From the NCBI GenBank assembly GCA_021772775.1, contig JAJFLH010000020.1:1-64000 (forward strand): a DNA stretch of 64,000 bases. Reading direction: 5' to 3'. A program made the translations under genes and the position numbers. The stretch comes from Mariprofundus sp. Lineage in GTDB: Bacteria; Pseudomonadota; Zetaproteobacteria; Mariprofundales; Mariprofundaceae. Under the pieces are notes generated by a model. The model saw nothing but the letters and a program-made list of their open reading frames with translations, was not told the DNA's origin and searched no databases. Positions 26,009-47,253 of this stretch are shown here, in pieces. Every line of letters begins with the position of its first letter. Position 1 is the first letter of the stretch.

Positions 26009-26782
26009 GTGATGAAAGCAGTCATATTAGCCGGTGGATTAGGTACTCGAATTAGTGAAGAGACTCACTTAAGGCCCAAACCTATGATTGAAATTGGGGG
26101 TAAACCGATTCTTTGGCATATCATGAAGAGCTATAGCACCTATGGCATCAATGCATTCATTATTTGCCTGGGTTATAAGGGGTATTTGGTTAAAGAGTAT
26201 TTTGCCAATTATTATATGCATATGTCAGATATTACCTTTGATATGGAAAATAATTCCATGCAGGTGCATCAGAATACAGCTGAACCTTGGAAGGTAACAT
26301 TGGTAGATACTGGTGAAATGACCGCTACAGGAGGTCGAATCAAGAGGATCGCATCTCACCTTCTTGCTGATGAACCATTCTGTTTTACCTATGGTGATGG
26401 GCTGGCTGACGTAAATATCGGTGAACTCATCGCTTTTCATCAGCGTAACGACAACCTAGCAACAGTTACCTCGGTTCAGCCTCCCGGTCGTTTTGGCTCA
26501 CTGGATGTTAAAGGAGATGAGATTCTTGCTTTTGATGAAAAGCCGCAAGGTGATGGTTATTGGGTGAACGGAGGCTATTTTGTGCTCTCACCCAAGGTTT
26601 TGGATTATATTGAGGGTGATGAAGCAGTGTGGGAAGAGCAGCCACTACAAGCATTGGCTTCTGAAGGAGAGTTGCGGGCTTTTAAGCACAAGGGGTTTTG
26701 GCAACCGATGGATACATTGCGGGATAAGGTGCGTTTGGAACAGTTATGGGATTCGGGTAAGGCCCCCTGGAAAGTTTGGTGA
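26009..26782 (+). CDS. rfbF: Glucose-1-phosphate cytidylyltransferase
   Basis: MKAVILAGGLGTRISEETHLRPKPMIEIGGKPILWHIM. Confidence 0.96.
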   Translation: MMKAVILAGGLGTRISEETHLRPKPMIEIGGKPILWHIMKSYSTYGINAFIICLGYKGYLVKEYFANYYMHMSDITFDMENNSMQVHQNTAEPWKVTLVDTGEMTATGGRIKRIASHLLADEPFCFTYGDGLADVNIGELIAFHQRNDNLATVTSVQPPGRFGSLDVKGDEILAFDEKPQGDGYWVNGGYFVLSPKVLDYIEGDEAVWEEQPLQALASEGELRAFKHKGFWQPMDTLRDKVRLEQLWDSGKAPWKVW

Positions 26783-27861
26783 ACGTGAGTTTATTTGCTG
26801 ATGAATACCGTGGACGTAAGGTGCTGGTGACGGGTTATACGGGTTTTAAAGGTAGCTGGCTGGTATTGTGGTTGAAAAGGCTGGGGGCAGAAGTCTCCGG
26901 CATTGCCTTGGGTTCAGTAGGTGAAGAAAATCACTGGGCACAGCTTCATTTAGATATTAAAGAATATAGGCAGGACATTCGTGATGCTGCAGCGGTTGGA
27001 GAGATTGTTGCGACAGTGAAACCAAATATTGTATTTCATTTGGCCGCACAATCGCTTGTGAGGGAATCCTATCATGATCCTTTGATGACCTGGTCAACGA
27101 ATGTTCAGGGTACTGTGAATATATTAGATGCATGTCGTATAGAGAGTAGTGTAAAGGCTGTTATTGTCGTTACATCTGACAAATGTTATGAAAATTTAGG
27201 CATTGAGCGAGCCTATGCGGAGGATGATCGTTTAGGCGGCTACGACCCCTATTCGGCATCAAAGGCTGCGACAGAACTGGTTGCGAGCAGTTATCGACGT
27301 TCATTTTTTGATCAAAAAAAGAGTCCTCTATTAGCGACTGCTCGAGCAGGAAATGTGATTGGCGGTGGGGATTGGAGTGATGATAGACTTATTCCGGACC
27401 TCATTCGTGCGGAGATGGATAGCTCTCCGCTTGAAATTCGTTCTCCATATTCAACACGCCCTTGGCAACATGTTTTAGATGCTTTGGCTGCTTATCTTTT
27501 GCTTGGGCAGAATTTGTTGTCAGGTAAGCAAGAGGCTGCATCTGCATGGAACTTCGGCCCTGATCAGGAAGATAATAAACAGGTTATCGATGTGTTACAG
27601 ATGATGCAAAATGAGTGGCCTAATTTAAAATGGTGTGTGAAAGTTGATGAACACCCTCATGAAGCACATCTATTAAATTTAAATAGTTCGAAGGCAAAAG
27701 AACTTCTGCGGTGGTCACCTGTATGGGATTTGAATCAGGGAATTAAAATGAGTGCAGAATGGTATAGAAGTTATTTGAAGCAGCAGCGTATTGATAGCGA
27801 AACTCAATTGGAAACATTTATTGAAGATGCGCAAGAAAAACATTGCTGTTGGGCAATTTGA
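26776..27861 (+). CDS. rfbG: CDP-glucose 4,6-dehydratase
   Basis: GYTGFKGSWLVLWLKRLGAEVSGIAL, SDKCYEN, YDPYSASKAATE. Confidence 0.95.
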   Translation: MVNVSLFADEYRGRKVLVTGYTGFKGSWLVLWLKRLGAEVSGIALGSVGEENHWAQLHLDIKEYRQDIRDAAAVGEIVATVKPNIVFHLAAQSLVRESYHDPLMTWSTNVQGTVNILDACRIESSVKAVIVVTSDKCYENLGIERAYAEDDRLGGYDPYSASKAATELVASSYRRSFFDQKKSPLLATARAGNVIGGGDWSDDRLIPDLIRAEMDSSPLEIRSPYSTRPWQHVLDALAAYLLLGQNLLSGKQEAASAWNFGPDQEDNKQVIDVLQMMQNEWPNLKWCVKVDEHPHEAHLLNLNSSKAKELLRWSPVWDLNQGIKMSAEWYRSYLKQQRIDSETQLETFIEDAQEKHCCWAI

Positions 27862-28414
27862 TTTGAAATTAATTCCAACAGCTATTCAGGGCGTGATGAT
27901 CGCTGAAAATAGTATCTTTGAAGATTCGCGTGGAGCTTTTTCACGTCTGTTCTGCGAAATTGAATTGGCTCCTGTTCTTGCTGATAGAAAGATAGTGCAG
28001 ATCAATCAATCTATGACGCATCAGGTTGGCGCTGTTCGAGGCTTGCATTACCAGCATCAACCCAATGCTGAGATGAAGATGATACGATGCATAAAAGGAA
28101 AGGTGTGGGATGTTGCTGTAGATCTGCGTAGAGGCTCATCAACATTTTTACATTGGGTTGGTCAGGAACTTACAGAGGGAAAATCAGAGATGATGATTAT
28201 CCCAGAGGGTTGCGCACATGGTTTTCAGGTGTTGGATGTCGACTCTCAATTGCTTTATCTGCATACGGCTTCATATACTCCTGAAACTGAAGGTGCTATT
28301 CGTTATGATGATCCGTTGATTGCTATCGATTGGCCTGTGAACGTGACTGATCTGTCGCAGCGAGATCAATCACAATCATTACTTTTAAATACATTTCAAG
28401 GGTTAGATTTATGA
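27827..28414 (+). CDS. RfbC-like nucleotide-sugar 3,5-epimerase
   Basis: GAFSRLFCE, QVGAVRGLHYQ, IIPEGCAHGFQVLD; internal ATG at 27827 preferred to ORF-track start 27791. Confidence 0.88.
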   Translation: MRKKNIAVGQFDLKLIPTAIQGVMIAENSIFEDSRGAFSRLFCEIELAPVLADRKIVQINQSMTHQVGAVRGLHYQHQPNAEMKMIRCIKGKVWDVAVDLRRGSSTFLHWVGQELTEGKSEMMIIPEGCAHGFQVLDVDSQLLYLHTASYTPETEGAIRYDDPLIAIDWPVNVTDLSQRDQSQSLLLNTFQGLDL

Positions 28415-29634
28415 ATTGCAGACACTGTGCATTGCCACTAAAGCATCTGTTTCTTGATCTTGGTTCAGCGCCGCCTTCCAATGCCTATTTGAGTGAGGTC
28501 AGCTTGCAAAAGAAGGAACTTAGCTTTCCGCTTCGTCTGTTTGTTTGTGATCGCTGCTGGTTAGTTCAGACAGAGGATTATTTGTGTTCGCAAGAGTTGT
28601 TTACGGCCGATTATGCCTATTTCTCATCGACATCAGCTGGTTGGACGCAACATGCGGCAGACTATTGTACAATGATTGTTGATCGACTTGCTTTGAATCA
28701 AGACAGTTTTGTTATTGAAATTGCTGCAAACGATGGATATTTGCTAAAGAATTTTTTAACGCTGAATGTTCCCTGTTTAGGTATTGAACCTACTGAAAGT
28801 ACTGCACGGGCGGCTGAAAAACAGGGCATAGAGGTGGTACGAAAGTTTTTTGATCATAAGTATGCCCAAGAGCTCGTAGAGGAGGGCCGGCAGGCCGATT
28901 TGATTATCGGCAACAACGTCTATGCGCATGTGCCGGATATCAATGATTTCACATCAGGCCTGAAAAAAGCACTTAAGCCGAAAGGCACGATCACTTTAGA
29001 ATTTCCACATTTGCTGAATTTGATTCGTTTGAATCAGTTCGATACGGTCTATCATGAGCATTACTCTTATCTCTCGCTACACACAGTTCAGAGCCTCTTT
29101 GCTGATGCTGGGTTGATTGTGTATGACCTGGAGAAATTGCCTACCCATGGAGGCAGTTTGAGGGTCTATGGCGGACACGCCGATGAAGGTTTGTCGGTCA
29201 GTGCTTGTGTGATCGAAGTACTGAATGATGAGAAAGAGGCTGGCATGTTAAGTTTATCTCTTTATCTGGCTTTTCAATCACAGGCTGATCGGGTGAAAGC
29301 TGATTTGCTCGATTTTTTATTGACGCAGAAGGCAGAGGGTAAACAAGTTGCTGCTTATGGTGCTGCGGCTAAAGGCAATACTTTACTCAATTATGCTGGC
29401 GTAAAGGCGGATCTGCTAAGCTTTGTCAGTGATGCAGCCCCTTCAAAGCAGGGGAAATATATGCCTGGTAGCCACATTCCAATTCTCCCACCTGAAGCGA
29501 TTCGTGAGCATAAACCCGATTATGTGTTGATTTTACCATGGAACATAAAAGAGGAGATCATGCAAAGAAATGAGTGTGTAAAGGAGTGGGGCGGTCGATT
29601 CGTCACGGCTATTCCTGAGTTGAAAGTGCATTGA
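28411..29634 (+). CDS. NDP-sugar C-methyltransferase (zinc-binding N-domain, SAM domain, C-terminal domain)
   Basis: CRHCALPLKHLFLDLGSAPPSNAYL, VIEIAANDGYLL, DTVYHEHYSYLS. Confidence 0.9.
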   Translation: MNCRHCALPLKHLFLDLGSAPPSNAYLSEVSLQKKELSFPLRLFVCDRCWLVQTEDYLCSQELFTADYAYFSSTSAGWTQHAADYCTMIVDRLALNQDSFVIEIAANDGYLLKNFLTLNVPCLGIEPTESTARAAEKQGIEVVRKFFDHKYAQELVEEGRQADLIIGNNVYAHVPDINDFTSGLKKALKPKGTITLEFPHLLNLIRLNQFDTVYHEHYSYLSLHTVQSLFADAGLIVYDLEKLPTHGGSLRVYGGHADEGLSVSACVIEVLNDEKEAGMLSLSLYLAFQSQADRVKADLLDFLLTQKAEGKQVAAYGAAAKGNTLLNYAGVKADLLSFVSDAAPSKQGKYMPGSHIPILPPEAIREHKPDYVLILPWNIKEEIMQRNECVKEWGGRFVTAIPELKVH

Positions 29635-29638
29635 TCAG

Positions 29639-30505
29639 ATGACAGATAAACTCAAAGTAGCAGTTACAGGGGCCAGTGGGTTTATAGGTCAATATGTGTT
29701 GAAATCGTTGGCCAAGAAAAATGTCGACGTTATCGCTGTAGTGCGCAATAAGGTCGACTCAAAACTTGAAGGTCCAGAGTTTCGTCTGGTTGAAATGGAT
29801 ATAAGCAGTCCCGGAGAAAATCCATTTGAGTCTATGGGAAGCCCGGATATATTGATTCATCTTGCATGGGGTGGATTGCCTGATTATGAAAACAACTCTC
29901 ATTTGGAAGAAGAGTTACCTATACATGTTTCATTTGTATCGAATATGGTAAGGGCAGGATTGAAGACGCTTTTTGTCAGTGGAACATGTTTAGAGTATGG
30001 CATGAAGTCTGGTGAATTGAGTGAAAGGGATCTGCCTTCGCCGACTAATCCTTACGCCATAGCAAAGAACACCTTGCGAAAGGAGTTGGAAGATTTAAAA
30101 AACAGATATGAATTCAATTTGATTTGGTCACGTCTCTTTTATATGTATGGAGAAGGTCAGGGTTCCGGATCTCTCTACCCACTACTTCAAAAAGCGATCG
30201 AGCGTGGAGATGCTGTATTTAATCTATCCGGTGGAGAGCAGTTGCGAGATTATTTACACGTTGAGGATGTCGTAGATAGTATTACCTTACTTGCACTGGC
30301 GCGACAGGATTTTGGTATAGTCAATATCTGCTCTGGAAAGCCAGTATCTGTTCGTCACCTAGTTGAAGGGTGGTTAAAACAGCAGCCATGTTCGATTCGC
30401 CTGAACTTTGGTTATTATCCGTATCCAGATTATGAAGCGATGGAATTTTGGGGGTCCATAAAAAAATTACATCCGTTGATATATCCATCGATGAAATATG
30501 GTTAG
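29639..30505 (+). CDS. NAD-dependent epimerase/dehydratase (nucleotide-sugar reductase)
   Basis: VAVTGASGFIGQYVL, NPYAIAKNTLR, RDYLHVEDVVDSI. Confidence 0.9.
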   Translation: MTDKLKVAVTGASGFIGQYVLKSLAKKNVDVIAVVRNKVDSKLEGPEFRLVEMDISSPGENPFESMGSPDILIHLAWGGLPDYENNSHLEEELPIHVSFVSNMVRAGLKTLFVSGTCLEYGMKSGELSERDLPSPTNPYAIAKNTLRKELEDLKNRYEFNLIWSRLFYMYGEGQGSGSLYPLLQKAIERGDAVFNLSGGEQLRDYLHVEDVVDSITLLALARQDFGIVNICSGKPVSVRHLVEGWLKQQPCSIRLNFGYYPYPDYEAMEFWGSIKKLHPLIYPSMKYG

Positions 30506-30575: not shown

Positions 30576-31859
30576 ATGATAAATAAAAGACCCCCTACAG
30601 TTGATGAACTGCATACAATGGTTGCTGGAAGGACTGTCTATATCTGGGGGGCTAGGCATGAAGGTTATTCAACTCAGCAGGTATTTCGGCGCCTGAATAT
30701 TCCTGTTGCAGCCTTTATTGACAGCAGTATTTCTTTGCAAGGGACTCAGGCTTTTGGTATGGATATTCACTTACCATCAGAATATTTCACACGGCATGAT
30801 AAAAAGGATTGTTTCATTATTCTTGCATCCGGTTTTTATGCTGATGAACTTACTGAATCCTGCATTGATCAAGGTTTAGAAGCAGGCAAAGATTTCCTGG
30901 TGTATAATGAACTAAAACGCTTTAACTATCAGGTAGATATATCAGGTACTTGTAATCTAAAGTGCATTTCTTGCCCACGGGGTAATTTTCCTGAACACCG
31001 CTCGGGTGGTTATATGACCAAAGAGGTTTATGAGCAGGTGTTAGATAAGATTCTTCGGGAAGATCCCTATACGGGTATTATTACCCTCTATAATTGGGGT
31101 GAACCTCTACTGAATAAACATCTACCTGAAATTATTAAATTGAGTAATGAAAGAGGTGTTCATACCGCTATATCAACGAACCTGAGTTTGAAGTTGGATT
31201 TTGAAAAGGTGATAGCGGCAAAACCTACATGGTTTAGAGTTTCTAATTCGGGCTGGGGCGATAATTATGAAGTGACTCACACTGGCGGTGACTGGGAGCT
31301 TTTTAAAAGTAATTTGTATAAGCTGAAAACGTATAAAGAGAAATATCATCCTGAGATGTTAGTGGAAATGTTTTTTCATATTTATCAACATAACCGTAAT
31401 GATTATGACAAAATGCAGCAGCTATGTGATGAGCTGGGATTTACCCTGCGTTATCGCCATGCTGCACTTGCTCCATTGGATAATATTGAGAAGATTATTG
31501 ATGGAGTTCCGCTTGATGCACAGTCAGAAAAAACACGTGAGTTGCAGTTCTTAAAAGTAGAAGAGGTGATTCCTTTAGCTCAGGCCCAGAAGGATAGGGA
31601 ATGTTTCTATGAAACACATTTATGGATCACTTGGGATTTGCATGTAGCACAGTGCATGGAATGGTATAAACCGGGTCTTAATTTAGTTGAGACAAGTTTC
31701 CTGGATACACCGATTGATGATCTGTGGAAGGCAAGGGAAACAAGTGAATTTTGTCACACCTGTAAATCCAAAGGGATTCATCGGGTGTACTGCGTCTATG
31801 GTGATGAAAAGCTGATTCATGAAAAGCAGAGTTTGACTATTCAAACGGATCGTATGTGA
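30576..31859 (+). CDS. Radical SAM protein 1 with N-terminal IWGA domain and SPASM-like C-terminus
   Basis: VYIWGARHEGYSTQQVFRRL; SGTCNLKCISCPRGN (CX3CX2C); C-terminal Cys cluster CHTCKSKGIHRVYC. Confidence 0.9.
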   Translation: MINKRPPTVDELHTMVAGRTVYIWGARHEGYSTQQVFRRLNIPVAAFIDSSISLQGTQAFGMDIHLPSEYFTRHDKKDCFIILASGFYADELTESCIDQGLEAGKDFLVYNELKRFNYQVDISGTCNLKCISCPRGNFPEHRSGGYMTKEVYEQVLDKILREDPYTGIITLYNWGEPLLNKHLPEIIKLSNERGVHTAISTNLSLKLDFEKVIAAKPTWFRVSNSGWGDNYEVTHTGGDWELFKSNLYKLKTYKEKYHPEMLVEMFFHIYQHNRNDYDKMQQLCDELGFTLRYRHAALAPLDNIEKIIDGVPLDAQSEKTRELQFLKVEEVIPLAQAQKDRECFYETHLWITWDLHVAQCMEWYKPGLNLVETSFLDTPIDDLWKARETSEFCHTCKSKGIHRVYCVYGDEKLIHEKQSLTIQTDRM

Positions 31860-33094
31860 TGAAAGTTTCTGTAGAAGAGCTTCGTAATATTACAGATTCT
31901 CACGAGATCTATATTTGGGGGGCGATGATTGTTGGTCAGGGGGTGTGCCGCTCCCTTGAACGTTACGGTGTCCAGGTAACCGGGTTCATAGATTCAAGTT
32001 CTGGTCTACAAGGCAACAGAGCACTGGGCTATGAAATCCTTGCACCTGCAGTGCTTGATGATAAAGATCATCAAAAAATCGTAGTTGTTGTCAGCTCAGG
32101 GCATTATGATAAAGAGATTGAGCAGCTCTGCTTGGCTCATGGCTTGAAAAAGAACGACAGTTATATCCTGAGCAGGGAGCTTAACGATATTGATCCTAGT
32201 ATTGATATTGTGGGTAGCTGTAATCTGAAGTGTATCTCTTGTCCACGTGGTAATATGGAAGATTCATTGCCTAAAGGCTTGATGAGTATTGAAGACTATC
32301 GGGCTGTTGTTGAAAAGTTATTAAGAGAATTGCCACTACTTGGCAGTATTCAGCTTTATGCTTGGGGAGAACCATTTCTACATAAGAAACTACCTGAAAT
32401 TATTGCGATCAACCGGAAAGCTCATCTACTAACCGCGATCTCAACAAATTTAAACGTTCCTGTGGATTTTGAACGTGTGCTCATTGAGAAGCCAGACTGG
32501 ATCAAAGTTTCGGCTTCAGGTTTCGGTGCAAATTACGAAGTGACTCATACTGGTGGCAAGTGGGATATGTTCTTGAAGAACATTCACCGTTTAGCAAAGG
32601 CCCGAGATAAAGTGCATCCTGATTTGCAGATTATGTTGAATTACCATCTCTATAAACATAACTGTGAAGAAGACTACGTTCAGATGCAGGCATTATGTCG
32701 CGAACTGGGGCTGATATTTCGATCCAATCATGCTTATCTTTATCCTCTGGATCTTGTGCGGGATGCTGTCGATGGGAAAGCTTTGCCAGTTGAGGCAGAG
32801 GCAACCAAAAGTCTGCTTTTGATGTCAATGGAAGAGGGATTGGAAAAGGCCAAGGCGCAGAAACATCTGCCTTGCCCTGAATTAAGCTGTTTACCAATTA
32901 CCTGGGATCGACAGGTTCGTTTTTGTGGTGTTTATTACAATCCATTTCTTTCAAATGATTTTCTAGAGGAGCCATTGGAGAGTATGGTACAGCGGCGTAA
33001 TACCAGTGAGTTCTGTCAGGAGTGTATGGATCTAGGCTTGCATCAGTATACTGGAGTTTATCTACAGGAAACGCTATTGAAGAGGGGCGAATGA
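31859..33094 (+). CDS. Radical SAM protein 2, paralogue of preceding ORF
   Basis: IYIWGAMIVGQGVCRSLERYG; GSCNLKCISCPRGN; ATG at 31859 overlaps preceding TGA. Confidence 0.9.
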   Translation: MKVSVEELRNITDSHEIYIWGAMIVGQGVCRSLERYGVQVTGFIDSSSGLQGNRALGYEILAPAVLDDKDHQKIVVVVSSGHYDKEIEQLCLAHGLKKNDSYILSRELNDIDPSIDIVGSCNLKCISCPRGNMEDSLPKGLMSIEDYRAVVEKLLRELPLLGSIQLYAWGEPFLHKKLPEIIAINRKAHLLTAISTNLNVPVDFERVLIEKPDWIKVSASGFGANYEVTHTGGKWDMFLKNIHRLAKARDKVHPDLQIMLNYHLYKHNCEEDYVQMQALCRELGLIFRSNHAYLYPLDLVRDAVDGKALPVEAEATKSLLLMSMEEGLEKAKAQKHLPCPELSCLPITWDRQVRFCGVYYNPFLSNDFLEEPLESMVQRRNTSEFCQECMDLGLHQYTGVYLQETLLKRGE

Positions 33095-34356
33095 AGTCTT
33101 TGGATATCGCGGCATTGCAACAAATGATTGCTGGCCGACAGGTTTGGATTTGGGGTGCAGGAAATCATGGGCGCGGGCTTAGTCAGAGTTTGGATAAGTA
33201 TGGAATTAAGGTGAATGGCTTTATTGATAAATCATCAGACCTGCTTGGTAAACGCGCTCTGGGGTTACCAATTGTCGGCCCATCGATGATTGAGATGAAC
33301 GGCTTTTCGGAACAGCATTTTATTATCGTTTCTACATTTTATTTTGAGGCTGAGGTGAAGCAAACATGTCAGGCATCTGGTTTAGAGGAGGATTGTGACT
33401 TTATTGCTTACACCCGCTTAAAACCAAATGACTATGCCATTGATATCACAGGAGCATGCAACCTCAAATGTATCTCTTGTCCGCATGCTTACAATAATCC
33501 CGCTGAGCGAAAGGGCGGAGTCATGCATCTGGACCTATTTAAGCAGGTGTTAGATAAAATCGTTGCAGAGGCTCCTTTTGTTGGAAATGTTCAGCTTTAT
33601 CAATGGGGGGAGCCGACCCTTCATAAGCAATTGCCTCAGATGTTGAATTATGCAGAGACTCTTGGTATTAAATGTGCGGTATCGAGTAATCTGAACGTGC
33701 CTGCAGATTTTGAATCGATAATAAAAGCGAAACCAGAATGGTTGCGGCTTTCAGCCTCTGGCTGGGAAAAACGTTACGAGATTACACATACACTGGGTGA
33801 CTGGGAGTTGTTTACACACAACCTTCGGGAAGTGTGTCGATTAAGGAAGCGCTGGCATCCAGAGATGAAGGTTGAGCTCTATTACCATCTCTATAAACAT
33901 TCAGTTGGAGAAGACTTTGATCGCTGGAAGGCCTTGTGCTCAGAACTGGAGATTGAGTTTCATCCTGTTTATGCCTATTTAATATCCTTGGATGATGTAT
34001 TGGCCTATCAGGAAGGTGCCCCTCTCCCTGTTGAGGCTCAGAAGGCTTCTGAGATGCTGTTATACCCCATGGATGAGGGGGTGCGAGAAGCCAAGGCCGA
34101 GGCAAAACTTCCATGTGATACTTTTAGATGCATTAGCATTAATTGGGACCTTTCAGTGAGCAATTGCATGATGTATTATTACCCTACGAATAATGTTGCA
34201 GCCGCCAACTATTTGGAAACGCCGATTGATGAGATTATGAGTGTTCGAGAAGATTGTAATCTTTGCCAGCGCTGCATGGATAAAGGAGTACATCGTTATT
34301 GTGGGGTTTATTCACGTAAGAAAGTAGATCAAAAAATGATGCAGGGTGGGGATTAG
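33091..34356 (+). CDS. Radical SAM protein 3, paralogue of preceding two ORFs
   Basis: VWIWGAGNHGRGLSQSLDKYG; GACNLKCISCPHAYN; ATG at 33091 in ATGA overlap with preceding ORF. Confidence 0.9.
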   Translation: MKSLDIAALQQMIAGRQVWIWGAGNHGRGLSQSLDKYGIKVNGFIDKSSDLLGKRALGLPIVGPSMIEMNGFSEQHFIIVSTFYFEAEVKQTCQASGLEEDCDFIAYTRLKPNDYAIDITGACNLKCISCPHAYNNPAERKGGVMHLDLFKQVLDKIVAEAPFVGNVQLYQWGEPTLHKQLPQMLNYAETLGIKCAVSSNLNVPADFESIIKAKPEWLRLSASGWEKRYEITHTLGDWELFTHNLREVCRLRKRWHPEMKVELYYHLYKHSVGEDFDRWKALCSELEIEFHPVYAYLISLDDVLAYQEGAPLPVEAQKASEMLLYPMDEGVREAKAEAKLPCDTFRCISINWDLSVSNCMMYYYPTNNVAAANYLETPIDEIMSVREDCNLCQRCMDKGVHRYCGVYSRKKVDQKMMQGGD

Positions 34357-35674
34357 AGTGGCAGCGATCAATGTTGTTCATCTGGCTCCACATTATGGCG
34401 GTGGTGTGGGCTCGGTCATCCGGTCACTTATAGAAAAGCAGACGGAATATAAGATCAGTCATGAATTGGTGGCTCTAGAGTCAATAAATTCACCTATGCT
34501 TACTTGGTGTGAGAATCATTATGTAGCAACACTACAGCATGGGCTTGAGCAGAGTTCCAAACTTTCAGCCAGGTTAGCAGAGGCTGATATTGTGCATATT
34601 CATTGGTGGAATCATCCTCTTTTGATGCAGTGGATGGTTAGCTGTTCGGCATCGCCATTTCGTTCTGTATTATGGACGCACGTCAATGGCATGCATGCAC
34701 CACAAGCTTTTTTTAAAGAGCTCTTTAGTTTTTCTGATATTACAGCTTTGGCGACGCCCTTTAGTCTTGAGTCTCTAGTGATTCCTCAGGGTGGGGCTGA
34801 TGTTCGTGTAATGCAAAGTATGTCAGAGGTAACAATTTCTCCACAATCCGATGTTAAACGTAGTGAGGGGGTTAATATCGGTTACATCGGAACAGTCGAT
34901 TATATAAAAATGCATCCGCAATTCATTCGGTTGTGTCTGGATGCAAAAATTAATGATGTCAGATTTACCGTTTGTGGAGGACCGTATGAGAAGCTAGTTC
35001 GTCAGCAGATTGCCGAACTAGGCGCAGAGGCATCATTTGATATCAGAGGTCCAGTTAACAATGTTAGCGAGGTGCTTTCTGAGCTGGATCTATTTGGGTA
35101 TCCGTTAAACCCCAAGCATTATGGCAGTGGAGAACAGGTATTGCTCGAAGCGATGGGTGCAGGAGTTGTGCCTGTTGTTCTCGATACTGGCTGTGAGCGT
35201 TTTATTATTCATGATGGTAAGGATGGGATTATCGCATCATCATGTGAAGAATATAGCCAAGCATTAAACTATCTTGCCAATAACCCAGCGCTTCGCCGAA
35301 CCATGTCTTTGGCTGCCCGACAAAGAGCGAAATTTTTATCTCAGGAGAAATATTGGGAGGCTTGGTTACAGCTATATGAAGAGTTGTTGACTAGGTCTAA
35401 AAGAGTACACCATTTGAAGTTGTCCAAATCTTATAACTCTTTAACACAAGGTGGAGCTTTGCTTCTACAGGCATATCAGGACACGTCGTTTGATAGTGTG
35501 TTTATGAATGCGTTGGCGGATTTGGCTGAGTCAAACCAATTAATCGATTCAGTTCCTTGGAGTATGCAGTCTGCAACAAGAGGTACACCCAAACATTATT
35601 TGAGTTATTTCCCGGAGGACAAAGATTTATCACGTATTTGCAAGAAGTTTGCAGCATTTAAGGTGCTGGAGTGA
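34346..35674 (+). CDS. GT4-like glycosyltransferase
   Basis: HLAPHYGGGVGSVIRSLIEKQ, GYIGTVDYIKMHPQF, GSGEQVLLEAMGAGVVPV. Confidence 0.85.
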   Translation: MGIRVAAINVVHLAPHYGGGVGSVIRSLIEKQTEYKISHELVALESINSPMLTWCENHYVATLQHGLEQSSKLSARLAEADIVHIHWWNHPLLMQWMVSCSASPFRSVLWTHVNGMHAPQAFFKELFSFSDITALATPFSLESLVIPQGGADVRVMQSMSEVTISPQSDVKRSEGVNIGYIGTVDYIKMHPQFIRLCLDAKINDVRFTVCGGPYEKLVRQQIAELGAEASFDIRGPVNNVSEVLSELDLFGYPLNPKHYGSGEQVLLEAMGAGVVPVVLDTGCERFIIHDGKDGIIASSCEEYSQALNYLANNPALRRTMSLAARQRAKFLSQEKYWEAWLQLYEELLTRSKRVHHLKLSKSYNSLTQGGALLLQAYQDTSFDSVFMNALADLAESNQLIDSVPWSMQSATRGTPKHYLSYFPEDKDLSRICKKFAAFKVLE

Positions 35675-35729: not shown

Positions 35730-37160
35730 ATGAAGGTAATGCTTATCCAGCCTGCAAGGCTTGCAACATTAAGAGAAAGCAAAGGCACGATCCCAGTTCC
35801 TTTATTACATTTAAGAGCAGTACTCCAAGCAAATGGAGATGAACCTATTGTATATGACCTATCGGTTAAAAAATGCCCTGATGATTTAGATGTGGAGACA
35901 TTTATTTTTCAGGATATTGAACAACAAATTGATAGCCAAGCCCCACAGTTGATAGGTGTAAACTGCTTTACTTCAATTCATTTTCAAACTGTTTTACAGC
36001 TTGTTGAACATATAAAAGAGAAGTATCCCGATATTCCCATTGCTGTAGGTGGGGCGCATCCAAGTTTGTTTCCAGAAGAGATATTAAAGGGAGCTGATGC
36101 GATTGATTATGTCATTGTTGGAGAAGGTGAAGAGCAAATTGTTCAATTAGTGAACTTTATTAAAACAGGGGACTGGTCTGTTTTAGAGGCTACGCAAGCA
36201 TTATCATATCGTAAAAATGGTGAGGTTGTTTATAATATTCGCCGCACTTATATTGACGATTTGGATGACTTGCCTAATCCTGCTTGGAATTTGATTAATA
36301 CATCCGATTATTCAACAGATCTATCTTCTTGGCACAACCCCAAAGGGCTGGACTTTACTACTTCGATGCCAATCATTACGTCGCGTAGTTGTCCGTTTAA
36401 ATGTAATTTTTGTGCCTGTTTTACAACGATGGGCCGTAAATTAAGGTTGAGAAGCCCATCAAGGGTTGTCGATGAAATACAGATGTTGCATGAAGTTTAT
36501 GGGCAAAATTATTTTGGATTTATTGATGATATTGTAAACCTCCATCAAAACCATTTTATCGCAATTTTAGATGATATTGTTAAGCGCGGTTTGAATATTC
36601 ACTTTGATACGACATGCGGTGTACATATAGGCACACTTAATGAAGAAGTCATTGATGCGATGGCGCGAGCAGGCTGTGCATTTATTCGACTGCCCATAGA
36701 ACATGGCAATGACAATATGAGAAACAATATTATTGGCAAACATTTGGACAGAGATAAAATTTATGATCTTGTGAAGGTGATTAAAAAATATGACATGGTC
36801 ACCTCAAGTATGTTTATTTATGGCTTTCCTGAAGATACGGTCGAAACTGTTCAGGATACATATGATATGATTTGTGACTTGAAACTGGATAGAAATTACG
36901 TATTTAATATCATTCCATTCCCAGGAACAAGGGTGTTTCAGGAAGCTAAACAGCATAACCTCTTCATCGGTGATTTTGCTGTGGATGAGCTATGGAAGGG
37001 AAAAATTAACCTTGACCCAGTAGCAGATGAGCCTCGCTTTTTTATCAAACCACATAATATGGAAATTGAAGATTTGAAACACTTCCGTACTTTATTTGAT
37101 TCTGTACAAGTCTTTAGTGAAAGGGCAAAGAACAGTCATACTTTATGTGGCTCTAAATAA
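35730..37160 (+). CDS. B12-binding-domain radical SAM protein
   Basis: MKVMLIQPA..., GGAHPSLFPEEILKGADAIDYVIVGEGE (B12-binding-like), SRSCPFKCNFCACF (CX3CX2C). Confidence 0.92.
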   Translation: MKVMLIQPARLATLRESKGTIPVPLLHLRAVLQANGDEPIVYDLSVKKCPDDLDVETFIFQDIEQQIDSQAPQLIGVNCFTSIHFQTVLQLVEHIKEKYPDIPIAVGGAHPSLFPEEILKGADAIDYVIVGEGEEQIVQLVNFIKTGDWSVLEATQALSYRKNGEVVYNIRRTYIDDLDDLPNPAWNLINTSDYSTDLSSWHNPKGLDFTTSMPIITSRSCPFKCNFCACFTTMGRKLRLRSPSRVVDEIQMLHEVYGQNYFGFIDDIVNLHQNHFIAILDDIVKRGLNIHFDTTCGVHIGTLNEEVIDAMARAGCAFIRLPIEHGNDNMRNNIIGKHLDRDKIYDLVKVIKKYDMVTSSMFIYGFPEDTVETVQDTYDMICDLKLDRNYVFNIIPFPGTRVFQEAKQHNLFIGDFAVDELWKGKINLDPVADEPRFFIKPHNMEIEDLKHFRTLFDSVQVFSERAKNSHTLCGSK

Positions 37161-37164
37161 GGCT

Positions 37165-38316
37165 ATGGGAAGAGCCTGCCCAGTTTGTCATTCTAATAAC
37201 AGTGAATGTATAACCTCATTACAGTATCTGATGTGGGATGATTCGGTTTTAAATGGCACTGCAGAGTTAGTGGGATGTAAGAGCTGTGGGATGCTGTTTA
37301 ATGATACCTTAGATGAAGAGACTGATTTCGAGCGATATTATGCGGATGATGATTATTATGCTGTCGCCGATAGCGCTGGAGCAGGGGCTGTGAGTGAGCA
37401 AGAGCAGATGCGCTATTTGAGGATATTCGAGACTTTTTCTGATTACCTCAGTACAGATAAGCCATGTCTAGTAGATATGGGTGCTGGTCAAGGCGGCTTT
37501 TTGAAATGGTGTCAAAGCAATAAGCAGGTGGAAGCTATTGCTGTCGAGATGTCAGAAGCATGTGCATATAAAATGAGAAATGAGCTTTCTATTCCTGTAT
37601 ATAAAAAATTCACAGACATTGAGAGAAAGGACATTGATATCATTGTTATGTCTCATGTTATGGAACACCTCTTTCAGCCTGATGAAGTGTTGAAGTCAAT
37701 TGTTGATGAAGTATCTGGGCAGACTCTTTTTTACATAGAAGTGCCCAATGCGGCCTGCTATTTGATTGATGAAAACCCATGGAAACATCTCTATTTTGAG
37801 CACATCAATCATTTTGATGCGCTTCATTTAGATAGTTTTATTCGTAGCTTTGGATTGGAGCCTGTTGCACAGGGAAACAGATCTTTTTCTCCGGGCTCAG
37901 GAGATGATAAAGAGTGTGTGTTTGTGCTCTGTAAAAAGAGCTCAACAACGCAGCGAGGTTCTGATATGAGCTTGCTTCATCATGCAAAGACAAGCTTTCT
38001 AGATAACTCCTCATTGTTTCATATGTTGGAGAAACAAATGAATTTAGCTAAAAGTATTAGCATTTGGGGTGCTTCTCAATATGTACAGTTGCTATTGGGT
38101 AGTAGCGAGTTGTTGAGAGACAATATCCGTTTTCTTGTTGATAAGTCTTCGGCAAAATGTGGTCGTATGATGGGTGGTATTGAAGTGAAGCCCCCATTAG
38201 TACTTTCTGATTTAGGTGTCGATGATCTGCTATTGATTCCACATGGTCCATATGTTCAAAATATGAGAATGGAACTTGAGAAAATGAATTTTCAAGGTGA
38301 TGTCCTTGAGTTCTGA
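37165..38316 (+). CDS. SAM-dependent methyltransferase with zinc-binding N-terminus and IWGA C-domain
   Basis: CPVCHSNNSECI...CKSCGMLF, LVDMGAGQGGFLKW, SISIWGASQYVQLLLG; ATG 37165 preferred over 37096. Confidence 0.85.
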   Translation: MGRACPVCHSNNSECITSLQYLMWDDSVLNGTAELVGCKSCGMLFNDTLDEETDFERYYADDDYYAVADSAGAGAVSEQEQMRYLRIFETFSDYLSTDKPCLVDMGAGQGGFLKWCQSNKQVEAIAVEMSEACAYKMRNELSIPVYKKFTDIERKDIDIIVMSHVMEHLFQPDEVLKSIVDEVSGQTLFYIEVPNAACYLIDENPWKHLYFEHINHFDALHLDSFIRSFGLEPVAQGNRSFSPGSGDDKECVFVLCKKSSTTQRGSDMSLLHHAKTSFLDNSSLFHMLEKQMNLAKSISIWGASQYVQLLLGSSELLRDNIRFLVDKSSAKCGRMMGGIEVKPPLVLSDLGVDDLLLIPHGPYVQNMRMELEKMNFQGDVLEF

Positions 38317-38408: not shown

Positions 38409-39116
38409 ATGATTGAAGGTAATGAAGAGGAAATAACATTCTCTAAACAGAAAGATATTATGCAGCAGTTAGGTATTCAAGCTCCAGTCATATTTGATGT
38501 TGGAGCTAATATTGGGCAAAGCATTTTGAAATATCGCACTCTTTTTCCCGATGCTGGAATTTGTTCATTTGAACCAAATTTAGAGGTTATAAGAGAGCTT
38601 CAATTAAACGCAGATCAGGCATCTGGTGTCGAAATATTTAAGATTGCATTTAGTGATTCAGATGGAGAGAGCGAGTTTTATAGGACTGCAGTTCCAGAAG
38701 CTTCATCTCTGTTAAAACCAGAACAATTTTTAATGGATTTAAGCAAAGAGAATAAATATGACTTTGATAAGGTTGTTGTTCCTACTATGACGCTGGACAC
38801 TTTTGTTGAAGAACATCAAGTGAGTACGATAGATCTCCTTAAAATTGATGTTCAGGGAGCTGAGTTGAAAGTGTTAGAGGGAAGCTCAGTATCATTAAAG
38901 TCAGGTCTGATTAAATGCATCTATATTGAAGTGAATCTAGCTTCGACATATGTTGGTCAAATGTCGTTAAATCAACTTATGAAACTTATGGCTGCATGCA
39001 ACTTTCAACTGTGGGATATATTACCCTTTGTTTATACAAGAGTAGGGAGAGCTTGGACAGCAAATGCTATTTTTGTACAAAATGATATGGTGAAGAAAAT
39101 CGAGGGGAATTATTGA
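38409..39116 (+). CDS. FkbM-family methyltransferase
   Basis: IFDVGANIGQSILKYRTLFPDAGICSFEPN, DLLKIDVQGAELKVLEG. Confidence 0.92.
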   Translation: MIEGNEEEITFSKQKDIMQQLGIQAPVIFDVGANIGQSILKYRTLFPDAGICSFEPNLEVIRELQLNADQASGVEIFKIAFSDSDGESEFYRTAVPEASSLLKPEQFLMDLSKENKYDFDKVVVPTMTLDTFVEEHQVSTIDLLKIDVQGAELKVLEGSSVSLKSGLIKCIYIEVNLASTYVGQMSLNQLMKLMAACNFQLWDILPFVYTRVGRAWTANAIFVQNDMVKKIEGNY

Positions 39117-39117
39117 A

Positions 39118-39852
39118 ATGAAGGATGACCATGATCAGTTTTTGAAGGCTAGAAAACAACGATTACAATCGGTTGAAGGCAACAGTGAGCTAATCGATAG
39201 TGCTCAAGCCTTTCTTAAACAGTGCCATCATGATGACTACTCTTATAATTTTGATTGGATGGGTTTACCCGTTATTCAGTATCCCCAGGATTTATTGGTT
39301 ATGCAGGAGATTATTTGGAGAGTAAAACCTGATTTAATCATTGAGATGGGGATAGCTCGCGGTGGCTCTCTTGTTTTTTATGCATCTATGCTGGAATTGC
39401 TTGGTAGTGAAGGTCGAGTGTTAGGGATAGATGTGGATATTCGTGAACACAATAAACGACGTGTTTTAGATCATCCAATGAGTAAACGAATTGAAATGAT
39501 AGAGGGCTCTTCGCTTGATAGTGATACCCACCGGAGGGTAAAAGAGATTGCTCATCAGCATCAAACAATTATGGTCTGTTTAGACTCAAATCACACTCAT
39601 GAACATGTTTTGAATGAGCTAAGGCTGTATGCTCCATTGGTAAGTAGTGGCTCATATTGTGTTGTCTTTGATACGATTGTAGAGCTAATGCCTGACAATC
39701 ATTATCAAAATAGGCCATGGAATAAGGGAAATAGTCCAGCAACGGCAGTCCTTAGCTACCTTGAAGAGTGTAAGGACTTTAAAGTTGATGTTGAGGTTGA
39801 CTGTAAGTTACTAATTTCAGCTGCGCTTGGTGGCTATCTGTATAAAAAATAA
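39118..39852 (+). CDS. Cephalosporin-hydroxylase (CmcI)-like protein, probable SAM methyltransferase fold
   Basis: GLPVIQYPQDLLVMQEIIWRVKPDLIIEMGIARGGSLVFYASMLELLG, VCLDSNHTHEHVL. Confidence 0.88.
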   Translation: MKDDHDQFLKARKQRLQSVEGNSELIDSAQAFLKQCHHDDYSYNFDWMGLPVIQYPQDLLVMQEIIWRVKPDLIIEMGIARGGSLVFYASMLELLGSEGRVLGIDVDIREHNKRRVLDHPMSKRIEMIEGSSLDSDTHRRVKEIAHQHQTIMVCLDSNHTHEHVLNELRLYAPLVSSGSYCVVFDTIVELMPDNHYQNRPWNKGNSPATAVLSYLEECKDFKVDVEVDCKLLISAALGGYLYKK

Positions 39853-39913: not shown

Positions 39914-41155
39914 ATGAAGAAACCTCCTATTAGTATATGTATGCCGACCTTTAATCGAGCAAGGATCTTGGATGAAACATTATCCCATTTGGTCGATTGT
40001 AAGAGTTTTTTTGATTTTGAGCTTGTCATTACAGATAATGCATCTGAGGATAATACGCCTCAGATTATTGATAAGTACAGAGATCAGTTTCCCAGCCTTA
40101 TCTACCATAGACAAAGTGAAAATATTGGAGCTATACTCAATTCTGCTTCGGCATTGAATCTTGCCACCTCAGAACTTTCATACCTGTTTCCAGATGATGA
40201 TAGGCTTGTTCCAGAGACCATTCAAAAAATTATTGGCATGTTTGATGATAGCTCTCAACTTGTGGCTGTTTACGGGAATCATATTGAATTTAATCCTTAT
40301 ACGGGAAAGGAGTTCGAGCTGTGCCTGAGAATCAAGGAAGAGAAAATATTTAACTATGACAGTCGTGTCGATATGTTTGAGCAGTACAGTCAAGTATGGA
40401 GTCCCGTTTTTAAAACAGGAATCAGTCAACGTTTTAATTATTTTGATGAGACTACATTTGGTCTTTGGCAAGTTGTTGAAAACATTATAAAATATGGCTC
40501 AATTGCTTTGATTCCAGACGCTGTGTACAAACATGCTCATACGAAAGATCGCATGGAACAGGACTTGGTAGAGCCATGGTATCAGGATTGTCACAGATCT
40601 GATTTTGAGCTGTTTATAGGAAGGCTTGGTATTGATCATTCAATTGAAGGTATTACAGAGCATGTAATCAAGGCGGTATCTGATCGCTCTGTATCAGCTT
40701 ATGTGACTGCATGTGATTTTTCGCGTGAGCAGGAAAAGTATATGTTACAGCGCCATTATCTACTGCGGGCTCGTTGCTACGGCCTCGTTACAGATGAGCA
40801 GATGAAGGTCCAAGAAGAAAACTTCATGCTACATTGGCTTTTAGAGCGAGTTGAAACGACTCTCAAAGGTTTACCTGATGTTCAGAAAATAGTTATGGAA
40901 AGATCAGCTATGAGTGAATATATACTTTTTTTAATAAACAGTGAACGATTCTCTTCACTCCCTTGCATGGAGCTATGTTCAGCTGATCAATTGGAAGAGC
41001 GAGAAACTGATGATGGGGAGTTATTATTAGTTTCTGATTACTCCACGATAGAAAATAGAAAAATAAAAAAACAGGGCTATGAGTTTTCTATCAATGATAT
41101 CATCAGCACGTTAAGAGTTACGCAAGGAGATTTGTTGATTAAAACAGTGCATTAG
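39914..41155 (+). CDS. Family 2 glycosyltransferase
   Basis: ISICMPTFNRARILDETLSHL, LVITDNASEDNT, LFPDDDRL. Confidence 0.9.
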   Translation: MKKPPISICMPTFNRARILDETLSHLVDCKSFFDFELVITDNASEDNTPQIIDKYRDQFPSLIYHRQSENIGAILNSASALNLATSELSYLFPDDDRLVPETIQKIIGMFDDSSQLVAVYGNHIEFNPYTGKEFELCLRIKEEKIFNYDSRVDMFEQYSQVWSPVFKTGISQRFNYFDETTFGLWQVVENIIKYGSIALIPDAVYKHAHTKDRMEQDLVEPWYQDCHRSDFELFIGRLGIDHSIEGITEHVIKAVSDRSVSAYVTACDFSREQEKYMLQRHYLLRARCYGLVTDEQMKVQEENFMLHWLLERVETTLKGLPDVQKIVMERSAMSEYILFLINSERFSSLPCMELCSADQLEERETDDGELLLVSDYSTIENRKIKKQGYEFSINDIISTLRVTQGDLLIKTVH

Positions 41156-41293: not shown

Positions 41294-42120
41294 TTATGCA
41301 GCTAACGCCAGTTTTTGAATTGGGCTTATGCCACCAATATCCATATTAGGTCGTTCATTATTGTACGTCCATAACCACTTGGTCGCATGTTGCTGAACCT
41401 GTTCAATGCTTTTGAAAATGAACTGTGCCAACCAATCATGCCGAATTGTGCGATTATAACGCTCAACATAGGCATTTTGTTGCGGGTTTCCTGGCTGGAT
41501 AAAGTCCAGAATAATGTCGTTATTTTCGGCCTAGGCTTTGAGTAACGCACTGATATATTCTGGCCCATTATCACTGCGAATACGCTTGGGTTTACCACGC
41601 CATTCAATGACCCTGTTCAACGCAAGAATGATACGCAAAGCTGGCAAAGAAAAGTCAGCTTCTATGGTCAGTCCTTCACGGTTAAAGTCATCAATAACAT
41701 TGAACACGCGGAAACTACGACCATCACTAAGTTGATCATGCATAAAGTCCATCGACCAGCATTCATTGATCGCATCAGGTACTACCAAGACGTCTGGTTT
41801 ATCTTGTTTCAAGCGTTTCCTTGGTCTGTACGCAAATTAAGTTCAAGTTCTCTGTAGATGCGATAAACACGTTTATGATTCCATCGAAAACCCTTCACAT
41901 TACGCAAATACAGAAAGCATGGCCCAAAAAAACAATTGATTTGATTTTGAGTGAGTCGAATCAACCAATCAGCAATGATTTCATTCTCAGGTTGTAACTT
42001 GGATTCATATCGGTAACAGGTTTCACTAATCGTAAATGCACAGCAAGCAAGGCGGATACTTGCTCTATTATTGCTTACAGCCTTCTTTGCCATATCACGG
42101 CGTTCTGAAGGCTTCACCAC
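41294..42120 (-). pseudogene. IS3-family transposase OrfB (rve integrase), disrupted
   Basis: Fragments 41809-42120 and 41531-41812 in different frames; in-frame TAG at 41531-41533; downstream readable frame still encodes NPQQNAYVERYNRTIRHDW. Confidence 0.88.
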
Positions 42121-42380
42121 TTTTTTGCCATTGCTTCCTGAATGATTTCATACTTGAGACATTCTTCAGCATACATTCGCTTCAAACGACTGTTCTCAGC
42201 TTCAAGCTCTTTCATTCGGGACATCATTGATGCATCCATGCCGCCATATTTACTGCGCGATTTATAGAATGAGGCAGAACTCATACCATGTTCGCGACAA
42301 AGCTCAGGAACGGTAACACCTGCCTCTGCCTGCTTCAGAATCGCCATGATTTGGCTGTCTAAATAACGTGATTTCTTCAT
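42114..42380 (-). CDS. IS3-family transposase OrfA (HTH)
   Basis: MKKSRYLDSQIMAILKQAEAGVTVPELCREHGMSSASFYKSRSKYGGMDASMMSRMKELE. Confidence 0.92.
   Translation of the reverse strand: MKKSRYLDSQIMAILKQAEAGVTVPELCREHGMSSASFYKSRSKYGGMDASMMSRMKELEAENSRLKRMYAEECLKYEIIQEAMAKKW
42120..42126 (-). other. Putative A6G slippery site for programmed -1 frameshift between OrfA and OrfB
   Basis: gcaaaaaagtggtga on minus strand at the OrfA/OrfB overlap, as typical of IS3 elements. Confidence 0.6.
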
Positions 42381-46431: not shown

Positions 46432-47253
46432 ATGGCATTAACAGTCCAAACCAATAACGCGGCAATGACCGCACTGAAACACCTCAATACAAATAGCCAA
46501 AATATGAATAAATCATTGGAACGTTTATCATCCGGTTTTCGGGTAAATAACGCATCTGATGATGCCTCAGGATTTGCAGTTTCATCCAAACTTGATGCAC
46601 AGGCAGGTCGCCTGAAAGCTGCATCTCAAAATGCAGTGCAAGCAACAGCAATGGTGAAAATGGCAGATGCTGGTATTAATGAAATTCAGAATATGGTGTC
46701 TCGTATTCAGACTTTGGCAACCCAGGCTGCATCAGCCAACAATGCTGGCGAATTAGGAAAATTGGATGGTGAAGTTACTAAACTTGAAACTCAGATTGAT
46801 AAAATTGCTGCTTCTACCAACTATAATGGTGTTCAGTTGCTTGATGGGACTACTGGAACGGCAGCTGTTCAGGTTGGTGCTGATAACAACACGAATAACC
46901 AGGTTACAGTGGATTTAGGTAAAGCATATACTACGACTGGTATGAGTTTAGGTGGATCTGTTTCTACTCAATCTCTTGCTCAGGCGCATATCACAACAGC
47001 GAAAGCATCAATGGATGCGCTTATTACAAATCGTGCTGATCTTGGTGCAACTCAGAATCAGTTAGGCTTTGTTCAGGCGAATCTGGCAACCAGTGTGGAA
47101 CAGACGGTTGCCGCGGTGTCTTCAATTCGAGATGCAGATATGGCTGCTGAAATGGCCAATTTCACCAAGAATCAGATACTGACACAAGCTGGTACGTCTA
47201 TGTTGGCTCAGGCGAATCAGGCAGCACAAAACGTTCTCTCACTGTTCAGGTAA
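46432..47253 (+). CDS. fliC: Flagellin
   Basis: N-term NNAAMTALKHLNTNSQNMNKSLERLSSGFRVNNASDDASGFAVSSKL; C-term ANFTKNQILTQAGTSMLAQANQAAQNVLSLFR. Confidence 0.97.
   Translation: MALTVQTNNAAMTALKHLNTNSQNMNKSLERLSSGFRVNNASDDASGFAVSSKLDAQAGRLKAASQNAVQATAMVKMADAGINEIQNMVSRIQTLATQAASANNAGELGKLDGEVTKLETQIDKIAASTNYNGVQLLDGTTGTAAVQVGADNNTNNQVTVDLGKAYTTTGMSLGGSVSTQSLAQAHITTAKASMDALITNRADLGATQNQLGFVQANLATSVEQTVAAVSSIRDADMAAEMANFTKNQILTQAGTSMLAQANQAAQNVLSLFR

Follow-up and report, generated by a model that had tools for sequence, protein, structure and literature searches.

A conserved cassette of three twitch radical SAM paralogues in a sugar-gene island of Mariprofundus sp.

Introduction

Radical S-adenosylmethionine (SAM) enzymes of the twitch type are an already known chemistry class, and radical SAM chemistry on sugars is known chiefly from antibiotic pathways. 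Here we describe three tandem genes, named rS1, rS2 and rS3, located at positions 30576-34356 of a stretch of 64,000 nucleotides from Mariprofundus sp. (contig JAJFLH010000020.1 of assembly GCA_021772775.1, hereafter the window). Among the described enzymes to which their products can be compared, BtrN, the 2-deoxy-scyllo-inosamine dehydrogenase of butirosin biosynthesis, is a twitch enzyme that dehydrogenates an aminocyclitol and has an auxiliary [4Fe-4S] cluster fully ligated by four Cys (PMC9012708, PMC6231123). In twitch domains, one Cys precedes a beta hairpin, one follows it and two lie past the following helix, with one auxiliary cluster; SPASM domains show a seven-Cys pattern (CX9-15GX4C-gap-CX2CX5CX3C-gap-C) and two auxiliary clusters (PMC6231123).

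The three proteins share with BtrN the CxxxCxxC barrel and the four-Cys twitch domain, but BtrN has ~250 amino acids (aa), is encoded as a single copy, lacks an N-terminal Rossmann domain and acts on an aminocyclitol. DesII, BlsE and viperin, whose small nucleotide or sugar substrates are a TDP-sugar, cytosylglucuronic acid and CTP, share superfamily and fold matches with the trio, although they differ in their C-terminal regions and show neither the N-terminal domain with the IWGA motif nor tandem triplets. The nearest curated profiles included TIGR04317 (W_rSAM_matur), the commonest curated match across the family (57/57 members at E <= 1e-5), and NF033640 (N_Twi_rSAM, twitch domain-containing radical SAM protein). 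However, rS1, rS2 and rS3 scored 58, 47 and 52 bits against a cut-off of 380 for the former and 24-28 bits against a cut-off of 170 for the latter, and are members of neither. Scores fell far below the cut-offs for all curated NCBIfam radical SAM models, and the named NCBIfam families were rejected for this reason.

Nothing describing the family emerged from literature searches that combined radical SAM or twitch terms with terms for flagellin, sugars, glycans or the O-antigen; those on radical SAM proteins in flagellin glycosylation gave just one unrelated Rickettsia genome paper, and those on the N-terminal domain and on C-methyltransferases found no useful structural paper. In agreement with the first-pass annotation of this DNA, which had proposed an undescribed system, none of the curated families, solved structures or text-searchable papers in the libraries searched covers the architecture or the three-gene cassette, and the comparisons with family collections and structures found no homologue of known function.

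Architecture of the three proteins

The genes and their predicted cluster-binding motifs are as follows:

30576..31859, + strand: rS1, twitch radical SAM paralogue 1; open reading frame (ORF) of 427 aa, N-terminal loop IWGARHEG, 36.3 bits to Pfam Radical_SAM, clade support 99/100
31859..33094, + strand: rS2, twitch radical SAM paralogue 2; 411 aa, loop IWGAMIVGQG, 29.2 bits to Radical_SAM, clade support 95/98
33091..34356, + strand: rS3, twitch radical SAM paralogue 3; 421 aa, loop IWGAGNHGRG, clade-invariant Cys404, 27.3 bits to Radical_SAM, clade support 100/99
30951..30974, + strand: CxxxCxxC of rS1 (C126, C130, C133), predicted ligands of the radical SAM [4Fe-4S] cluster, invariant across clades
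32219-32242, + strand: CxxxCxxC of rS2, invariant across clades
33457-33480, + strand: CxxxCxxC of rS3, invariant across clades
31602..31763, + strand: twitch cysteines of rS1 (C343, C360, C393, C396), 100% conserved per clade, hairpin-helix layout in the AlphaFold2 model
32873-33025, + strand: twitch cysteines of rS2, 100% conserved per clade
34114-34275, + strand: twitch cysteines of rS3, 100% conserved per clade

The three tandem ORFs of one layout reported in the first-pass annotation are real: all carry the CxxxCxxC and conserved C-terminal cysteines, and rS2 and rS3 aligned end to end with rS1 at 39-40% identity. Of the two ATGA overlaps claimed there, the one at the rS2/rS3 junction (33091-33094) was found in the sequence, but positions 31856-31859 read GTGA. 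The rS2 frame is open from GTG 31856, with ATG 31859 as the start preferred from the orthologue alignment, which makes the rS1/rS2 junction a TGATG overlap of 1 base. No gap separates rS3 from the following glycosyltransferase gene (GT4) in the window.

Radical_SAM was the sole Pfam match in the trio (E-values of 8e-9, 1e-6 and 5e-6 for rS1, rS2 and rS3), with rS1 above the cut-off of 29.5 bits and rS2 and rS3 under it. The invariant CxxxCxxC, the profile matches, the barrel in the AlphaFold2 model and the Foldseek matches place the proteins in the radical SAM superfamily. Judging from these E-values and from the orthologues in 14 other loci, the shared layout lies far beyond chance.

The AlphaFold2 model of rS1 (57-row alignment; pLDDT 94.8, pTM 0.92) consists of a Rossmann-like N-terminal domain (~1-112), a barrel of the radical SAM type and a tail at the C-terminus, in which alignment and model give the order C343, hairpin at ~348-359, C360, helix 380-388 and C393xxC396. 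By this cysteine layout, the tails are predicted to be BtrN-like twitch domains with one auxiliary cluster. The SPASM-like tail of the first-pass annotation was rejected, as just four C-terminal cysteines are universally invariant and seven would be needed. Among the listed Foldseek matches of rS1, BtrN (4m7t) had the highest target-normalised TM-score (0.67), with viperin at 0.66 and BlsE at 0.57, and BtrN was also the best sequence-profile match in the PDB (E 4e-8).

In addition to these shared features, each paralogue showed its own invariant residues. The N-terminal loop reads GARxxG in rS1, GAMIVGQG in rS2 (three divergent rS2 rows read GA(A/S)I(I/V)G(F/H)G) and GAGxxGR in rS3. Position 405 is occupied by Thr in every rS2 and by Cys in every rS3, and in most rS1 sequences by Tyr or Cys; further clade-specific residues lie at positions 173, 221, 266 and 297. 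C284, invariant in rS1 to rS3, was set aside as a candidate hydrogen donor, since secondary structure puts it at a helix end, on the barrel's far side.

Distribution, phylogeny and co-inheritance

A scan of 84,980 species genomes yielded 26 loci, 14 of them with all three genes, which kept the order rS1-rS2-rS3 in 14/14 cases, with GT4 directly downstream of rS3 in 14/14. The orthologues in these 14 other loci are full-length and ~45-77% identical. Carriers of the full trio belong to the gammaproteobacteria and deltaproteobacteria (Methylococcaceae, Chromatiaceae, Competibacteraceae, Desulfobacterales relatives, Syntrophus and further deltaproteobacteria), and include the cultured Thiorhodococcus minor DSM 11518 and Allochromatium warmingii DSM 173.

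In a 59-row tree, rS1, rS2 and rS3 formed three separate clades (99/100, 95/98 and 100/99) within one family, and the grouping of organisms inside each clade matched that of the others. The rS2 branch of this tree includes two long-branch rows that were excluded from the 15-row rS2 set. When solitary homologues were included as outgroups in a second, quick tree, the clades stayed apart (100, 88 and 99). The common descent proposed in the first-pass annotation holds, but a recent local triplication in this island was ruled out by the tree. On this phylogenetic evidence, the three genes make up a cassette that is both old and conserved, and the triplication predates the spread of this cassette between gammaproteobacteria and deltaproteobacteria.

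The host genome contains exactly three copies of the family, all at 30576-34356. Searches of 22 further genomes of the host genus and 77 further genomes of the host class found no member, and among 399 sampled genomes of the phylum there were, besides the window, just three solitary, distant copies. Therefore, the island was probably acquired by the host.

Co-evolution with neighbouring genes was analysed by pairwise correlation of distance matrices over 15 loci, with permutation p values. The partner genes concerned are, in the window:

34346..35674, + strand: GT4 glycosyltransferase (Pfam Glycos_transf_1, 5e-16)
37096..38316, + strand: methyltransferase with a Zn-ribbon-like N-terminus and a C-terminal IWGA-type domain (Pfam Methyltransf_23 and Methyltransf_14), core partner; its true start probably lies downstream of 37096
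35730..37160, + strand: B12-binding radical SAM protein of the BchE-like superfamily (profile matches), frequent partner
26009..26782, + strand: CDP-glucose pyrophosphorylase-like protein (rfbF), assigned from sequence without profile search; orthologues in 10/15 trio-bearing loci, window included
29639..30505, + strand: NAD-dependent epimerase/reductase (Pfam Epimerase, 3.5e-34)

Distances correlated strongly within the trio (r 0.92-0.93, p 0.001), with GT4 (r 0.77-0.89, p 0.001) and with the methyltransferase at 37096 (r 0.86-0.91, p 0.001), and more weakly with the B12 radical SAM protein (r 0.36-0.48). These correlations therefore define the inherited unit as the trio plus GT4 and this methyltransferase, with the CDP-sugar genes more loosely attached. 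Nothing else points as strongly as this co-inheritance to a distinct and indispensable role for each of the three copies, and the clade-specific loops and the residues at position 405 agree with such separate roles.

Several loci departed from the simple trio. Loci L015, L016 and L017 hold an extra family copy, which in L015 is a truncated rS1-like gene (3098-3610) between rS1 and rS2; the closely related L016 holds a full extra copy there, and the pair is an instance of copy gain and decay. In two Chromatiaceae loci (L010 15003-16481 and L012 15080-16312), a fourth, divergent member with the motif CQLKCP(S/T)CP, outside the three clades, lies right after GT4, and in L013 a B12 radical SAM gene sits between rS2 and rS3. 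In addition, the 65-kb plasmid of the cockroach-gut deltaproteobacterium Smac51 (L019, CP026658.1) carries three separated family members annotated as hypothetical. Finally, a 1.7 Mb single-contig genome (L041) contains a solitary member (1414-2742), whose paralogue-like neighbour (2663-3751) keeps the CxxC of the tail and has lost the CxxxCxxC; its product is a possible non-catalytic partner.

The N-terminal domain

The same Rossmann-like domain is found at the N-terminus of all the three proteins, and recurs in two methyltransferases of the island, the one at 37096 and the one listed last here:

30576..30926, + strand: Rossmann-like domain of rS1, residues 1-117 (AlphaFold2, Foldseek and profile matches)
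31859-32194, + strand: the same domain in rS2
33091-33432, + strand: the same domain in rS3
28411..29634, + strand: sugar C-methyltransferase (Pfam Methyltransf_13/23/14), present in some loci only

Modelled alone, the rS3 domain reached a pLDDT of 92.7. Profile searches matched 3nkl (a UDP-D-quinovosamine 4-dehydrogenase domain, E 3e-6), Rex (7e-5) and VioB (7e-4); in Foldseek, Rex was best (E 1.6e-5), with VioB bound to a TDP-sugar, PglB and 3nkl also matched and PerB weaker. VioB, PglB/PglD, PerB and 3nkl are all sugar-nucleotide proteins. PglD_N (PF17836) showed a similar fold and was matched at E <= 0.1 by 12/57 family members, at best with 21.9 bits (gathering score 23.4; E 2.6e-4) among the matches shown. 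From these relatives, the domain most likely binds a nucleotide, either a sugar-nucleotide or NAD.

The domain recurs as the C-terminal part of the methyltransferase at 37096 (hhalign E 2e-8), more weakly at the C-terminus of the C-methyltransferase at 28411 (E 4e-5) and, in other loci, as the N-terminal part of FkbM proteins (E 1e-7 to 2e-11). In the same comparison, the two proteins of the island with a short-chain dehydrogenase/reductase (SDR) fold, the epimerase at 29639 and rfbG, gave E 0.019 and 0.0045, and other controls gave worse values. FkbM methyltransferases with this domain at their N-terminus were seen at L010 16491, L011 4473, L013 8749 and L020 8005. Since it is present on FkbM methyltransferases too, this small domain has been shuffled among different glycan-modifying enzymes, and one reading of its recurrence on rS enzymes and methyltransferases is that it provides a common substrate handle. 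The N-terminal domain of PglD_N, NeuD and VioB and the C-terminal domain of Methyltransf_14 resemble it in profile and fold, but there the domain is joined to an acetyltransferase or methyltransferase; its fusion to a radical SAM enzyme, as in the trio, is covered by none of the families found.

Genomic context and flagellar linkage

The remaining genes of the island and its borders were assigned as follows:

26776..27861, + strand: sugar-nucleotide dehydratase-like protein (rfbG; Pfam GDP_Man_Dehyd/Epimerase), presumably of the CDP-glucose 4,6-dehydratase type from its neighbour
27791..28414, + strand: RmlC-like 3,5-epimerase (Pfam dTDP_sugar_isom, 2e-56)
38409..39116, + strand: FkbM methyltransferase (profile match)
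39118..39852, + strand: CmcI/rhamnosyl O-methyltransferase-type protein (Pfam RMNT_CmcI, 1.6e-84)
39914..41155, + strand: GT2 glycosyltransferase (profile match)
41326-42380, - strand: IS3-like element remnant, with an intact short orfA-like ORF (42114-42380) and then a split orfB-like frame
42473-46225, - strand: 1250-aa fusion of tetratricopeptide repeats, GT41 (O-GlcNAc transferase-like), FkbM and a further methyltransferase domain, adjoining flagellin
46432..47253, + strand: flagellin (Pfam Flagellin_N/C)
47705-50035: FliD, just beyond the island

The IS3-like remnant separates the island from the GT41 gene, and its orfB-like frame is in three overlapping pieces, apparently frameshifted. 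Proteins related to the GT41 fusion were also found near the trio in L012.

In flagellin glycosylation islands, of which that of Aeromonas is an example for comparison (PMC7874193), flagellin and FliD are accompanied by genes for sugar nucleotides, glycosyltransferases and methyltransferases, as in the window. The flagellar link suggested in the first-pass annotation extends to other loci: besides the flagellin and FliD genes beyond the island, four further trio loci showed linked flagellin, FlgL or FliD genes, with flagellin and FliD in L020, FlgK and a flagellin-fold protein read as FlgL in L010, an FlgL-like gene in L021 and, in L009, flagellar genes elsewhere on the contig. Many of the remaining trio-bearing contigs are too short to judge linkage.

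Proposed function and alternatives

Starting from the observed architecture, intact cluster motifs, orthology, fixed gene order, flagellar linkage in several loci and the way in which GT4 and the methyltransferase co-evolve with the three genes, we tentatively propose that the trio represents three non-redundant twitch radical SAM enzymes in an ancient, horizontally moving glycan-tailoring cassette with GT4 and the Zn-ribbon methyltransferase. The sugar substrate, the dehydrogenase or epimerase chemistry, the part of the N-terminal domain and the order of steps would be as follows. The Rossmann-like domain would grip the nucleotide, or other handle, of an activated sugar; the barrel would cleave SAM, and the 5'-deoxyadenosyl radical would abstract hydrogen from one of the carbons of the sugar; an electron would then pass to the one, fully ligated auxiliary cluster in a BtrN-like oxidation of alcohol to ketone, or rS3 might epimerise instead, with Cys404 donating the hydrogen. 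The product, a keto or epimerised sugar, would next be methylated by the methyltransferase, and GT4 would transfer it to a flagellar or other surface glycan. Sequential modification by the trio, already suggested in the first-pass annotation, is plausible; a radical assembly line that takes a single activated sugar through three fixed steps, leading to a rare branched or multiply oxidised flagellar sugar, with radical chemistry replacing SDR dehydrogenases, epimerases and aminotransferases, is more doubtful.

Several observations weigh against this proposal. The distances of the trio did not correlate significantly with those of rfbF (r 0.06-0.15), and did so only moderately with the reductase (29639; r 0.45-0.51), so that CDP-sugar is not necessarily the substrate, and the CDP-sugar genes, taken as functional context in the first-pass annotation, are weaker evidence on the substrate than assumed there. 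The top Foldseek matches of the N-terminal domain were the NAD(H)-binding Rex proteins, and the domain may thus bind NAD or be purely structural. By Foldseek E-value, the peptide enzymes SkfB and SuiB were the top full-length matches, and the identity to BtrN is just 17%. Finally, in a cassette-bearing genome of 7.7 Mb no flagellin was found; flagellin is therefore not a universal target, and other surface glycans may be targets too.

The main alternative is that the trio acts once the sugar has been transferred, its substrate being a lipid- or protein-linked oligosaccharide that GT4 has made, with the N-terminal domain as a docking or structural module. It would account well for the strong co-evolution with GT4 and the methyltransferase and its absence with rfbF, and for the position of GT4 directly after rS3 in all trio loci. 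C-methyltransferases of the island's type are known to act on nucleotide sugars, however, and the N-terminal domain is common to such proteins in the island and resembles sugar-nucleotide-binding domains, which leaves this alternative unlikely.

Direct modification of flagellin or another protein, with peptide chemistry as in SPASM/twitch maturases, is decidedly improbable, even though SkfB, SuiB and other sactipeptide-type enzymes gave the best Foldseek E-values and flagellar genes are linked in several loci. The Rossmann-like N-terminal domain and the lack of a RiPP (ribosomally synthesized and post-translationally modified peptide) recognition element disfavour peptide maturation, the partner genes encode glycosyltransferases, epimerases and methyltransferases, and the cassette also occurs in the genome in which no flagellin was found. 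Nor is there space for a precursor peptide between the overlapping rS genes, rS1 being preceded by ~70 bases. A RiPP-maturase identity was rejected on the grounds of recognition element and precursor; the first-pass annotation, which had seen no precursor ORF and had preferred a sugar or glycan setting, is supported on both counts.

Simple redundancy or gene dosage, with copies doing the same job and adjacent through the chance of recent duplication, would fit their single architecture and shared cluster-binding motifs, but the clade-specific invariant residues (loops and position 405) and the retention of one of each copy in 14 loci make it very improbable. A role as maturases of a metalloenzyme or cofactor, like the nearest named family TIGR04317 (tungsten oxidoreductase maturase), would fit the match of all 57 family members to that profile, but is scarcely credible, since the trio reaches at most 58 bits against a cut-off of 380 and no oxidoreductase partner is seen among the annotated neighbours, which are genes for sugar enzymes, glycosyltransferases and methyltransferases.

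If the proposed glycan tailoring is true, radical SAM sugar chemistry would be extended to cell-surface glycans in environmental proteobacteria and deltaproteobacteria. The trio would then offer three naturally diverged paralogues for comparing the determinants of oxidation and epimerisation in twitch enzymes, and the conservation of one of each makes the roles of the paralogues directly testable, including in the cultured hosts of the cassette.

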